Below are positions 3,817 through 15,064 of a DNA stretch of 36,032 nucleotides, in pieces; positions within the stretch are counted from its first letter, which is position 1, and each line of letters starts with the position of its first letter. The stretch is from an uncultured archaeon (lineage in GTDB: Archaea; Nanobdellota; Nanobdellia; Woesearchaeales; UBA583): NCBI GenBank assembly GCA_937138345.1, contig CAKZOW010000134.1:1-36032 (forward strand), read 5' to 3'. Below the pieces are notes generated by a model. The model was given only the letters and a program-made list of their open reading frames with translations. It did no database searches and was not told the DNA's origin. The position numbers and the translations under genes were made by a program.

Positions 3817-3929
3817 CTTACCTGTGACTAGATTTCTAAATTTATAAACATTGTGCACAAAAAACTACACAAAATAAAGAAAAAAAGAAAATAGTAAAAA
3901 AAAATTAAACACCCTAGAATCCTTGTCAC

Positions 3930-4050
3930 CAAACTCAAGCCGTTCTTGTCGGCAGACTAAGAAGCCTCAACGGCTTCTTCATCTACCATACTCAAAAATC
4001 AAAGATTTTTGGTCGCTAGACTACGGAGCCGCAGGCTCCTCATCTACCAT
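3930..4050 (-). repeat. Gene-end tandem array at the SMC 3' end
   Basis: Read on the minus strand. Unit 1 (4050-3990) begins with the last SMC codons, ATGGTAGATGA. It holds stem GGAGCC/GGCTCC with the TAG stop directly after, then TCTAGCGAC, then CAAAAATC-TTT-GATTTTTG, then AGT. Unit 2 (3989-3933) begins with the same ATGGTAGATGA. It has the changed but still complementary stem AGAAGCC/GGCTTCT, a TAG, then TCTGCCGA, then CAAG-AACGG-CTTG. A third start (TTGGTGA) follows. Period is 61 then 57 nt. Unit 2 would encode an alternative SMC end (MVDEEAVEAS, then stop). Confidence 0.8.
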
Positions 4051-9977: not shown

Positions 9978-11729
9978 ATGCCAAGAATTGCAGTAATTGA
10001 GAAAACAAAATGTAAACCTGAACTTTGTGGTTGGGTATGTCAGAAAAAATGTCCAATTAATATGACGGGAGCTGATTGTATTTACGAAGATAATAAAAAA
10101 GCAGGAATTGATGAAATTCTCTGTACTGGATGTGGAATTTGTCCTAAAATTTGTCCTTTTGATGCTATTGAAATTATTAATTTACCTGAATTAAAATCAG
10201 ATCCTATTCATCAATATGGGCCAAATGGATTTAGAATATTTAATTTACCAATGATTCAAGAAGGAAGTATTATTGGAATTTTAGGAAGAAATGGAATTGG
10301 AAAATCAACAGTAATTAATGTATTATCAAAAACCATGGAAGCAAACTTTGCTAAATTTGGTGCAGATAAAATTAAATCTGAGACCTATTTCGAATCATTA
10401 AAACAAGAATTCAAAGGTACAGTTCTTCAAAATTATTTCACAAAACTTGAAAAAGGAGAAATTAAAGTGGCATATAAACCACAACAAATTACAAATATTC
10501 CAAAAATGTTTTCTGGAGTTGTAAAAGAATTACTTCTAAAAGTAAATCCTGATGAAAAACAAGTACTCGAAATTGCTAAACAACTCAACGTAATAAAAAT
10601 CATCGATAGAGAAATTAAAGTCCTCTCTGGTGGTGAGCTTCAAAGAGTAGCAATTGCTGCAGCACTTTTAAGAGATGCAAACTTCTACATTTTTGATGAG
10701 ATTACAAATTATTTAGATATCTATGAAAGACTTAACTCATCAAGATTCATTAAAGAACACTGTTCAGGAAAAACAGCACTTGTTGTAGAACACGATCTCG
10801 TAGTATTAGACTACTTAATTGATTCAATTCACATCATGTACGGACAACCTTCAGCCTTTGGAATGCTCACCGGAGTAAAAGCTGCAAAAGTAGGACTCAA
10901 TGATTACCTAGAAGGGTATTCAAAAGAAGAAAATGTAAGGTTTAGAGATAAACCAATTACCTTTGATAAAGAATCAGATGCTACAATTCAAAAAATTGAT
11001 GTACTAACATCCTGGGAAGAAGAAAACATTGAAGTTGGAACATTTAAGTTAAATGTTAAAGCAGGTAATGTGAAAAGAGGAGAGACAATAGGAATTATTG
11101 GACAAAATGCTCTTGGTAAATCAACATTTATGAAACATATTGTAAATCAAGGGTTAGGAGATACAACTCTCTCATATAAAGCACAATTAATTGAGAGATC
11201 TGACAATATTGTAATGGCTGAACTAGCACAATTTGGTAATTTCACTGATTCATTTTATGAAACATATGTACTAAATCCACTCAATATCAAACCACTCTTA
11301 GAAAAACAAATTGATCAACTCTCAGGAGGAGAACTACAAAGATACGCTCTTGCAAAATGTCTTTTAGCAGATGCAGATATTTATCTTCTTGATGAACCAA
11401 CTGCATTTTTAGATATCGAAGATAGATTAAAAATTGCTAAAATGTTAAAATACTTCATGGAAACAAAACAAAAATCAGCATTCATCATTGATCACGATCT
11501 AGTATTTATGGACTATCTCTCAGATAATTTATTAGTATTTGAAGGAGAACCATCAATTCAAGGTACTGCACTTCCTCCGATGTCAATGAGAGATGGTATG
11601 AACACATTCCTAAAGAACTTAGAAATATCATTTAGAAGAGATGAAGCAAATAAAAGACCAAGAGTAAACAAACTAGGCTCCGTTAAAGATCAAGAACAAA
11701 AAAAGAGCGGAGAATATTATTATGCATAA
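9978..11729 (+). CDS. Ribosome recycling ATPase ABCE1 (RNase L inhibitor homologue)
   Basis: 583 residues. The N-terminal domain has two ferredoxin-like iron-sulfur clusters (cysteines at 12, 17, 21, 25 and CTGCGICPKICP at 49-60). Two ABC ATPase domains follow: Walker A GRNGIGKS with signature LSGGELQR, then GQNALGKS with a second LSGGELQR and LLDEPTAFLD. ABCE1 splits ribosomes into subunits after termination, with aRF1 or Pelota. Single gene with a clear TATA promoter. The 3' end carries a tandem hairpin array (11722-11833) in which the last bases, ATGCATAA, recur. Confidence 0.98.
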   Translation: MPRIAVIEKTKCKPELCGWVCQKKCPINMTGADCIYEDNKKAGIDEILCTGCGICPKICPFDAIEIINLPELKSDPIHQYGPNGFRIFNLPMIQEGSIIGILGRNGIGKSTVINVLSKTMEANFAKFGADKIKSETYFESLKQEFKGTVLQNYFTKLEKGEIKVAYKPQQITNIPKMFSGVVKELLLKVNPDEKQVLEIAKQLNVIKIIDREIKVLSGGELQRVAIAAALLRDANFYIFDEITNYLDIYERLNSSRFIKEHCSGKTALVVEHDLVVLDYLIDSIHIMYGQPSAFGMLTGVKAAKVGLNDYLEGYSKEENVRFRDKPITFDKESDATIQKIDVLTSWEEENIEVGTFKLNVKAGNVKRGETIGIIGQNALGKSTFMKHIVNQGLGDTTLSYKAQLIERSDNIVMAELAQFGNFTDSFYETYVLNPLNIKPLLEKQIDQLSGGELQRYALAKCLLADADIYLLDEPTAFLDIEDRLKIAKMLKYFMETKQKSAFIIDHDLVFMDYLSDNLLVFEGEPSIQGTALPPMSMRDGMNTFLKNLEISFRRDEANKRPRVNKLGSVKDQEQKKSGEYYYA

Positions 11730-11833
11730 AATTGCTCAAGCAATTTTAGGCGATCAAAAATGAAAACCATTTTTGAATATGCATAATTTCGTAGAAATTA
11801 TGCTACCATTAATTTTCTGAATTAATGAATATG
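11722..11833 (+). repeat. Gene-end tandem array at the ABCE1 3' end
   Basis: Unit 1 starts at the gene's final ATGCATAA. It contains AAAATTGCT/AGCAATTTT (11728-11747) overlapping the stop, TTAG, GCGAT (11750-11754), then CAAAAATG-AAAAC-CATTTTTG (11755-11775) and AATATG. Unit 2 (11779 on) again begins ATGCATAA and contains GCATAATTT/AAATTATGC (11781-11803) and CATTAATT/AATTAATG (11807-11827), then AATATG. Starts are 57 and 52 nt apart. All four stems are perfect. Confidence 0.8.
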
Positions 11834-11857
11834 ATTTAAGAAATTAGAATTAGTTAA

Positions 11858-12474: not shown

Positions 12475-12496
12475 AAAAAGTCTACTTAGACTTTTT
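12475..12496 (-). terminator. Stop-codon hairpin, H1-tailed membrane protein gene
   Basis: On the minus strand AAAAAGTCTA pairs perfectly with TAGACTTTTT around two bases. The stop TAG (12484-12482) starts the 3' arm and more T residues follow. This is the most bacterial-looking intrinsic terminator in the window. Confidence 0.65.
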
Positions 12497-13042
12497 AGCA
12501 GTAGTTGTTTTTTTAACAACTTTCTTAGCTGGAGCTTTTTTTGTAGCAGGAGCTTTTGTAGTTGAAGTCTTTTTAGTAACTGTTTTCTTAGCAGGAGCTT
12601 TCTTAGTAGCTGTCGCTTTTGTAGTTGAAGCTTTTTTAGTAACTGTTTTCTTAGCAGGGGCTTTTTTTGTAGCTGTCGCTTTTGTAGTTGAAGCTTTTTT
12701 TGTAGCTGTTTTCTTAGCTGGAGCTTTCTTAGTAACTGTTTTTTTCTTAACAACAACAATTTCATCCTCCTGATCTGCAGCTTCTTGTTTTGCTTGCATA
12801 TGACCTTTTACTGCTTTTTTTATATCATTTCCAGAAATTTTTGAGTGAGCAGACTTTTTAGTTGAAAATCCAAATAAAGAATAAATTCCTGACCATCCTA
12901 ATACTCCAAAAAACACAAATAAAATTCCAACAATTAAAACAATAACTGATGCTAACTTTCCTTTTACCATAATTGATGCAATAACAATTAATGCACCAAA
13001 AATGATGTGTAAAATCCTATCATTACCTGATAAATTACTCAT
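12482..13042 (-). CDS. Two-helix membrane protein with a histone-H1-like repeat tail
   Basis: 186 residues. The N-terminal ~60 residues resemble DUF2892/YgaP-type small membrane domains: [16 protein letters not shown], a second helix [18 protein letters not shown], and the short GIYSLFGFS motif. A charged linker (about 61-100) leads to a tail of three 21-residue units ([21 protein letters not shown] type, 105-167) plus a partial fourth. Such K/A/P/T repeats are typical of histone H1 and bacterial AlgP-like nucleic-acid-binding tails. TATA ATTTATAAATATT (about 13068-13080) is 26-38 bp upstream. A membrane anchor for nucleic acid is inferred, not shown. Confidence 0.7.
12521..12730 (-). repeat. 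63-bp coding tandem repeats (3.3 copies)
   Basis: Encodes the 21-residue [21 protein letters not shown] units of the H1-like tail, residues 105-174. Units 1 and 2 differ by one residue; unit 3 has two changes. The near-identity suggests recent expansion by slippage or recombination, and the copy number may vary between strains. Confidence 0.8.
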
Positions 13043-13878: not shown

Positions 13879-14847
13879 ATGACTAAAAAAAATTCTATTA
13901 TCACAGAAAAAGATATCTTAATTTTAAAACAACTTCTTCTCGATGGTAGAAAATCATCTTCCTCAATATCTAAAGAAATTGATTTAGGACGTGAAATAGT
14001 AAATTATAGAATTAAAAGATTGATAAAAGAAAATTTAATTGTTAAATTTGTTCCAAAAATCAACGAAAAAGCAATCAACTATCAAGAATATATTATTTTA
14101 TTAAAACTTAATCTCGAAGATGAACTCTCAAAAGATCAATTCATCAAACAAACAATTGGAAATAAATATTTAGTATGGACGACAAAATCCGATAGTGGAT
14201 GGGATTTAATTGTAAGACTCTATGCTCAAAGTATTGAAGAATTTAAAGAAAAAATGCAAGAGATTTTAGATTTATTCTCAGATGTATTAGCAAACTACTA
14301 TACAATAATTAGTTCTGATGAAATTAAAGAAGAAGAAAAACAAAACATTACACGAAATCTTTTTGATGAAATTGATCAAGCACCTGAAAAAGATTTCAAA
14401 AAAATAAAGGATTCTCCTCAGATACTCCTAGACACAAAAGACAAAGAAATTTTAAAACTATTAGAATCAGATGGTAGAATTCAGTATAAAGAAATTGCTG
14501 AAGAATTAGATATAAGCTCAGATACAGTAAAATATAGAATAGATAAAATGATCTCACAAGGGGCAATTGAAAACTTCATGCCAATTATCAATTTTAATAA
14601 ACTAGGACTAATGCACTATGTTGGAATTATTGAATTTACTTATCTAAACGTAAAAGAAGAAATAGAAATTAATGAAAAAATTAAAGAAAATCCTTTTGTA
14701 ATAAAAGCAATTAAATCTCTGAGTAAATCAGAATACTTCCTAACATTACTATTTGAAAAAGAGTATCAAGTCGAAGCATTCAAAGAAGAAATACAAGAAA
14801 TATTCAAAAACAAAATCAAAACATTTGAATGCTTTTCTATAGAATAG
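13879..14847 (+). CDS. Tandem Lrp/AsnC-type transcription regulator
   Basis: 322 residues containing two Lrp-like halves. Half one has a winged helix-turn-helix (about 11-55, LDGRKSSSSISKEIDLGREIVNYRIKRL) and a RAM-like alpha-beta domain. Half two repeats this from about 190 (KEILKLLESDGRIQYKEIAEELDISSDTVKYRIDKM). Canonical Lrp proteins are about 150 residues with one copy, so this is an internally duplicated form. The family binds DNA as dimers or octamers and often senses amino acids. Target and ligand cannot be told. TTTTTAAATC (about 13851-13860) is about 20-28 bp upstream. Its 3' end carries the longest gene-end hairpin array (14829-15012). Confidence 0.85.
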   Translation: MTKKNSIITEKDILILKQLLLDGRKSSSSISKEIDLGREIVNYRIKRLIKENLIVKFVPKINEKAINYQEYIILLKLNLEDELSKDQFIKQTIGNKYLVWTTKSDSGWDLIVRLYAQSIEEFKEKMQEILDLFSDVLANYYTIISSDEIKEEEKQNITRNLFDEIDQAPEKDFKKIKDSPQILLDTKDKEILKLLESDGRIQYKEIAEELDISSDTVKYRIDKMISQGAIENFMPIINFNKLGLMHYVGIIEFTYLNVKEEIEINEKIKENPFVIKAIKSLSKSEYFLTLLFEKEYQVEAFKEEIQEIFKNKIKTFECFSIE

Positions 14848-15012
14848 AAAAGCGACAAGAAATCTTGAGAATGAAATGAACAAGACACAAGAACGTAAGG
14901 TACTGAAGTGTCTGGTGTAAGCAAAGAATGAATGTCTAGTTTGCTTCTCAATTGAGTAATTGATAAGCGACCAATAATTACATAGTAATTATTGAGTATG
15001 CTTTTCTATTGA
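14829..15012 (+). repeat. Gene-end tandem array at the Lrp gene 3' end
   Basis: At least six hairpins in about 170 bp: GCTTTTCTA/TAGAAAAGC over the stop (14831-14853); CAAG-AAAT-CTTG (14856-14867) between GCGA and AGAATG; GACAC/GTGTC (14884-14912); AAGCAAA/TTTGCTT (14919-14946); TCAATT/AATTGA (14948-14963); and CAATAATTAC-ATA-GTAATTATTG (14972-14994) between GCGAC and AGTATG. After the last AGTATG, CTTTTCTAT copies the gene end. ATG-type unit starts are 42, 57 and 70 nt apart. Confidence 0.8.
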
Positions 15013-15064
15013 ATAATTTATCACAAATCCTAAAATAATGATTAAAAATAAGATTTAGATAAAA

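Follow-up and report, generated by a model that had tools for sequence, protein, structure and literature searches.

Protein-less, gene-end-restoring and probably mobile hairpin units form a family in Woesearchaeota and resemble guided single-strand elements

The stretch of DNA analysed here (the window, 36,032 nt) is contig C134 of a 1.80-Mb, 95%-complete Woesearchaeota-like draft genome, referred to as G000; the relatives in which matching contigs were found are Woesearchaeota/Nanoarchaeota MAGs. Three genes of the window, encoding SMC, the ABCE1/RLI ATPase and an Lrp/AsnC-like regulator, end in arrays of boxes, hairpins and copied gene ends (SMC, 3927-4047 on the minus strand; ABCE1, 11725-11847; the Lrp-like gene, 14832-15016). 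A preliminary description had given all box positions at these genes correctly and had offered two meanings, a replicating palindromic element that targets stop codons or a termination/3'-end-processing signal that spreads by slippage. No Rfam family matched in the window. Elsewhere in it, positions 12482-13042 encode a protein with a long degenerate KKA/T-rich repeat tail, which stems from near-tandem DNA repeats.

A type II unit, whose core is the box set of the preliminary description, has the order ATG/T–N'–CGAY–CAA-hairpin-TTG–ARTATG/T', where the slashes mark the two ends of the unit. T is a copy of the remainder of the interrupted gene, meaning all of it that follows the ATG when one reads along the unit; depending on the site, T contains a C-terminus with its stop codon, a start codon with upstream sequence, or a tRNA end. 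T begins with ~11 nt that pair with N', their reverse complement, and the outermost pairs of this stem begin exactly after the left ATG. T', the displaced original gene end, follows the final ARTATG. Since unit 1 carries T, the annotated end of the gene lies inside the first unit, and since the copy it brings is a re-spelled version of the lost end, the gene keeps working. A sister motif, type I, has a core that consists of a 4-nt box followed by AAGAAC...GTGTCT(A/G)G(C/T)(A/G)T and occurs both as short forms and as a ~90-nt long form.

At SMC (minus strand), T1 (VDEEPAAP-stop) and N' of unit 1 occupy 4016-4047 and form the hairpin TAGA..GGAGCC/GGCTCC..TCTA, followed by a core, CGACCAAAAATCTTTGATTTTTGAGTATG (3987-4015), that is a strict match in the genome-wide search. 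In unit 2, the stems of T2 (VDEEAVEAS-stop) and N' (3952-3986) are altered with compensation, and the core is degenerate (CGACAAGAACGGCTTGAGTTTGGTG, 3927-3951). ABCE1, on the plus strand, carries T1 (stop TAA) with N' at 11725-11750 and a core of the covarying CGAT..AATATG variant (Y with R) at 11751-11781; T2 and N' of its second unit (11782-11802) form the perfect hairpin CATAATTTC gta GAAATTATG, the core at 11803-11833 has a degenerate box, CTAC, and the decayed original end lies at 11834-11847. In the Lrp-like gene, also on the plus strand, T1 (CFSIE-stop) and N' of unit 1 (14832-14852) make a perfect 9-bp hairpin, with the annotated stop at 14845-14847, inside the unit. The core that follows is a long type I core of 91 nt (14853-14943; CGACAAGAA ... 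CAAGAACG ... GTGTCTGGTGT ... TGTCTAGTTTG); the copy previously placed at 14852-14873 is present, as merely the start of this core. Unit 2 consists of a recoded T2 (CFSIE-stop) with N' (14944-14967) and a type II core (14968-15000), and the displaced original end, T3, lies at 15001-15016. All three ends (TGCTTTTCTATAGAATAG, TGCTTCTCAATTGAGTAA, TGCTTTTCTATTGAATAA) encode CFSIE-stop. Copied host ends had been attributed to later units; they are seen at all three genes, and the first unit starts with one as well.

These arrays belong to a genome-wide family. G000 contains 25 strict matches to the type I pattern and 18 to the type II pattern, the reversed control patterns gave 0, and chance origin of the motif copies is excluded. 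Further copies in the genome had been the proposed test of a palindromic element that spreads and duplicates gene ends; this idea is supported, as are the anatomy and the existence of a family. Among 85,000 genomes, strict matches came to 8, all Nanoarchaeota/Woesearchaeota MAGs. The long type I core is common to the Lrp-like gene, an FtsJ-family gene and an ABC permease gene (the latter two on contigs C94 and C59) at ~80% identity, each with its own T and N'. Among 32 type II units with hand-curated boundaries, all have TG and 29 have ATG as their left flank, and pairing between N and N' amounts to 6.45 of 8 positions vs 3.21 for shuffled partners (sd 0.25; 0 of 5000), dropping beyond ~11 bp. 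Because this curation was manual, an automatic score was also run: 32 of 33 archaeal matches scored 10-15 (median 13), and 38 chance matches in viral contigs scored at most 9.5. One match (L064, in G007), with a score of 8, was rejected as a chance match. Folded as single-stranded DNA, most of the short units have z-scores of about -4 to -8. The units span about 50-190 nt (51-128 nt in the curated set, where no room is left for an ORF) and duplicate 19-99 nt of target each, N' counted in.

The placement of the units does not bear out a preference for stop codons as such: the insertion point is directly after (A)TG, and gene 5' ends and both ends of tRNA genes are struck as well. Insertions on the same strand as a gene lie near its 3' end, T holding the C-terminus and stop codon, and those on the opposite strand lie near its 5' end, T holding the start codon and upstream sequence (L048, L051, L057, L070, L075). 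Placement relative to stop codons is nevertheless non-random, as the preliminary description would have it, with 13 of the 18 type II matches at same-strand gene ends vs 5.8% of the ATG sites of the window within 90 nt of such an end (p ~6e-13). tRNA genes are struck in two ways. Opposite-strand units (L052, L063, L066, L071, L076, L079) lie close to the tRNA 5' end, directly after TTATG or CTATG, and come from six genomes, of which five do not belong to the genus; same-strand units (L011, L016, L038, L039) lie in the T-loop. The need of a unit to restore whatever it has cut off accounts for the pattern, whose simplest reading is that insertions are general and the restoring ones alone survive.

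Several individual sites were recorded in addition. The T-loop type I units L011, L016 and L039 share an extra conserved segment 5' of the core, TTCAAACATTCTCGC..GCGATAATGTACAAGAACG, which mimics the T-loop. Two same-strand insertions, L074 (G005) and L065 (G044), lie exactly at a start codon, such that the final ATG of the core is the start codon, and their core loop carries a GGAGG Shine-Dalgarno-like sequence. In L061 (contig C145) and L073 (G001), T has no stop codon; the reading frame ends at a stop within the core, and the C-terminus is therefore partly encoded by the element (LNSPEENIATKNS in a radical-SAM protein, LFQNAKGDQ in an ATPase-like protein). A pair of similar ATPase-like genes in G001 (L068 and L073) has units at matching positions, directly after GTGTGGAAATG.

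In both types, the terminal bases of a unit change in step with the 4-nt box that precedes its right hairpin. The type I pairs of box and right end are ACAC:GTGT, xTGC:GCAT and xTAC:GTAT; across 26 units, with kinship ignored, box position 3 gives counts of 17/0/0/9 (p 3e-7), and total pairing is 88 vs 69 for shuffles (0 of 10,000). In type II, CGAC occurs with AGTATG and CGAT with AATATG (26/0/1/5, p 3e-5, kinship likewise ignored). Neither this covariation nor the recoding of the copied ends had been noticed in the preliminary description. The covariation supports a relation like that between guide and cleavage site at IS200/IS605 right ends, and could alternatively reflect the base of a simple stem. 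Because N' adjoins the box on its 5' side and complements the post-ATG sequence, box and N' together are a continuous complement of the ATG/N junction. A precedent for such an extended guide is engineered IS608, in which 8-13 nt of extra pairing led to 12-17-nt target sites (PMC5934647).

The duplicated ends differ mostly in spelling. In 24 coding pairs aligned by hand, T and T' show 92 synonymous vs 23 nonsynonymous codon differences, where ~97 nonsynonymous ones are expected by chance. In G000, the three ends of dph5 (TIGR00522) all encode EENYLSQFQISKFKSY(Q/E)E, and 14/19 codons are changed between neighbouring copies, where codon-usage saturation expects 7.2; whole-gene comparisons between species plateau at 0.28-0.45. 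Recoding exceeds saturation in a diverged subset chosen post hoc (54/88 vs 33.1, z 4.8), and no excess exists over all pairs (59 vs 61), because young copies are unrecoded. Cross-species origin is unlikely as the sole cause of the recoding of dph5 in G000, since all three copies share a peptide that has no match in any congener. In all 4 three-copy arrays (Lrp in the window and L002, L045 and L053, i.e., FtsJ, UvrC and dph5), T1 resembles T3, and the middle copy is the recoded one.

Filled, empty and decayed sites were found by comparison with relatives. The Lrp gene end is without any unit in G001, G002, G003 and G004, and the dph5 end in G001 and G004. G002 has a decayed unit at dph5, with a perfect 13-nt N' and the core broken off, while G003 and G005 have one unit each and G000 has two. 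Between G003 and G005, the T of dph5 agrees at 31/33 positions, whereas 60-nt blocks of the gene agree at only 75-93%, and in T' 7/11 codons differ, all synonymously. Separate recent arrival of one unit fits these sequences better than common descent. Furthermore, two unrelated genes whose T and N' differ share a 29-nt core without a single mismatch. From the near-identical dph5 units in two species and this identical core we infer that the units are mobile.

Candidate enzymes were sought by profile. The Y1 (HUH) transposase (PF01797) was found neither in G000 (95% complete) nor in five congeners, with controls detected. Three Y1-positive relatives carry tRNA-type units, but their Y1 genes have no unit-like flanking ends; this and the absence from the genus led to the rejection of a Y1 transposase as the resident enzyme. 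G000 at the same completeness also yielded no TnpB (PF07282), on which a TnpB system was discarded, and no reverse transcriptase (PF00078), which together with the lack of an Rfam match in the window led to the rejection of a retroelement or group II intron. A viral carrier was rejected as well, given that the strict unit pattern had 0 matches in viral contigs and that looser patterns had 57 + 2 chance matches without unit anatomy. The enzyme may be missing from the draft, which lacks 5% of the genome, or may be supplied in trans.

The explanation that we favour, and consider moderately probable, is that Woesearchaeota harbour a family of very small mobile DNA units without a protein gene, which insert after (A)TG, restore the gene and are directed by a guide. 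What is documented for it at the level of sequence is the anatomy, the restoration of gene ends, the synonymous divergence of T and T', the filled, empty and decayed sites, the shared cores and the covariation of the boxes. A unit would move as folded single-stranded DNA and insert directly after (A)TG; as it ends in ...(A/G)TATG, its right end would recreate the target motif, and its left part, T, would copy the severed host sequence and so restore the gene. The right hairpin probably marks the end of the unit, and the 4-nt box may be a guide to the right cleavage site, with which it would pair. N' would lengthen this guide to about 10-15 nt by pairing with the post-ATG sequence, both in the target and at the left end of the unit itself, and it is proposed that a unit can thereby enter that gene again in another genome. 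Selection would remove insertions that do not restore the gene, and the recoding of T could prevent recombination between the duplicated ends or competition for N'. Against this explanation stands the resemblance of T1 to T3 rather than T2 in 4/4 three-copy arrays, which the model does not predict. The lack of Y1 transposase in the genus and of TnpB in G000, the duplication of target sequence and the phylogenetic non-independence of the pair counts also weigh against it.

Other readings account for part of these observations. The units might be folded single-strand recombination sites of a tyrosine recombinase, similar to integron attC, with cassettes of T and core exchanged by a host or XerA-like enzyme. 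Their private stems and conserved terminal boxes fit this, tRNA genes are classical recombinase targets, and an XerA ortholog is present in 6/6 genus members; a second IntI/Xer-like tyrosine recombinase occurs in G002 (L124), G003 (L125) and G005 (L123), all unit-bearing. This second enzyme was, however, found neither in unit-free G004 nor in G000, the genome with the most units; moreover, the covariation of the box with the last bases suits guide pairing better than an R-box/L-box pair, and recombinase sites do not normally have a stem built from the host gene. We regard recombination sites of this kind as unlikely. The recoding of adjacent ends, as in the 14/19 codons of dph5, would be explained if core and T' formed a guide RNA for a TnpB/Cas12-like nuclease acting in trans, which cuts ATG-T' of empty alleles and spares the recoded T of the carrier. 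The geometry is indeed TnpB-like, with a hairpin followed by the guide and a target motif 5' of the target, but the absence of a TnpB match in G000 and of an Rfam match in the window weighs against such a nuclease. It would also cut the core's own ATG-T', and a three-copy array in which T1 is like T3 would be self-targeted; we give this scheme little credence.

A further reading does without mobility: local tandem duplication combined with quasi-palindrome template switching during replication at gene ends, repeated many times, would produce T, which sometimes includes intergenic sequence (L011, L039, L071), and would perfect N' relative to the native sequence, as in L071 and L075. Such events leave unexplained the conserved core shared at ~80% by three genes and identically by two, the covariation of the guide, and the near-identical units of two species with diverged T', and a purely local origin is accordingly improbable. 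The least probable reading is the earlier one of transcription-termination or 3'-end-processing signals multiplying by slippage. Hairpins and the many units after stop codons agree with it, yet it is rejected because units also lie antisense before gene starts (the five opposite-strand insertions) and at start codons (L074, L065); those at tRNA 5' ends in five genomes outside the genus likewise stand against it.

Among known systems, the units most resemble IS200/IS605 elements (IS608, ISDra2). These insert 3' of a short motif that is kept at the left flank, just as TG or ATG is kept here, a 4-nt guide ahead of their right hairpin pairs with the cleavage site on that side, matching the covariation seen in the units, and extension of the guide programs the target in the engineered case cited above. 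In contrast, the units have no transposase gene in or near them, the host gene supplies the hairpin of their left end, which lacks an IS200/IS605-type guide and hairpin of its own, and a single box seems to do duty at both ends. On the tests carried out, the units are not members of IS200/IS605, since G000 lacks Y1 transposase, TnpB and reverse transcriptase. REP sequences and REPtrons (TnpA-REP) share with the units small hairpins, a 5' guide-like tetranucleotide, a nearby cleavage site and a multicopy, non-autonomous state (PMC8266576). REPs are extragenic and have conserved stems, unlike the units, whose stems are private to each locus and which carry gene ends, have a different guide and no associated TnpA-REP (Y1) gene. 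Neither IS200/IS605 elements nor REPs duplicate target sequence as the units do.

Gene ends that differ synonymously have a precedent in fungal mitochondria, where mobile ORFs replace the C-termini of Allomyces atp6 and of Glomus atp6, atp9, cox2 and nad3 (PMC3630166). The native and the replacement C-terminus of Glomus atp6 are 63.5% identical in DNA and 91% in protein (PMC3630166). As in the units, the insert supplies a new C-terminus, the old end stays downstream and the differences are mostly synonymous; those ORFs, however, encode a homing endonuclease of ~1 kb, whereas the units encode nothing, consist of two hairpins and strike gene starts and tRNAs as well. The Rickettsia palindromic elements, too, are small palindromes that protein-coding genes tolerate (PMC10969869), but they are internal and translated in frame, without target copying or gene-end restoration. 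No description of an element such as the present one was found in the open-access literature searched, and as far as that literature shows, the synonymously different end is new for units so small, for tRNAs and for archaea. The double-hairpin elements of fungal mitochondria resemble the units in having two hairpins, a short length and repeated insertion. Neither copied and recoded gene ends nor a covarying guide are known from them.

Usual mobile elements damage genes or avoid them. These units enter essential genes (SMC, ABCE1, UvrC, dph5, aIF6) and tRNAs and repair the damage by a copied, synonymously re-spelled end, in units down to ~50 nt. They may, though we advance this only tentatively, be mobile DNA of a categorically new class, namely homing units that are specific to a gene and encode no protein, with a host-made left end, an extended DNA guide and an actively recoded gene end. 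Such units would act on essential genes and tRNAs as a natural "insert and rescue" drive. If the extended guide is real, the units would be a natural counterpart of engineered IS608 retargeting, namely DNA-guided, gene-specific insertion without an element protein. They offer a natural example of recoded-rescue logic, and in this archaeal group the annotated C-termini of the genes that bear them are element-borne.
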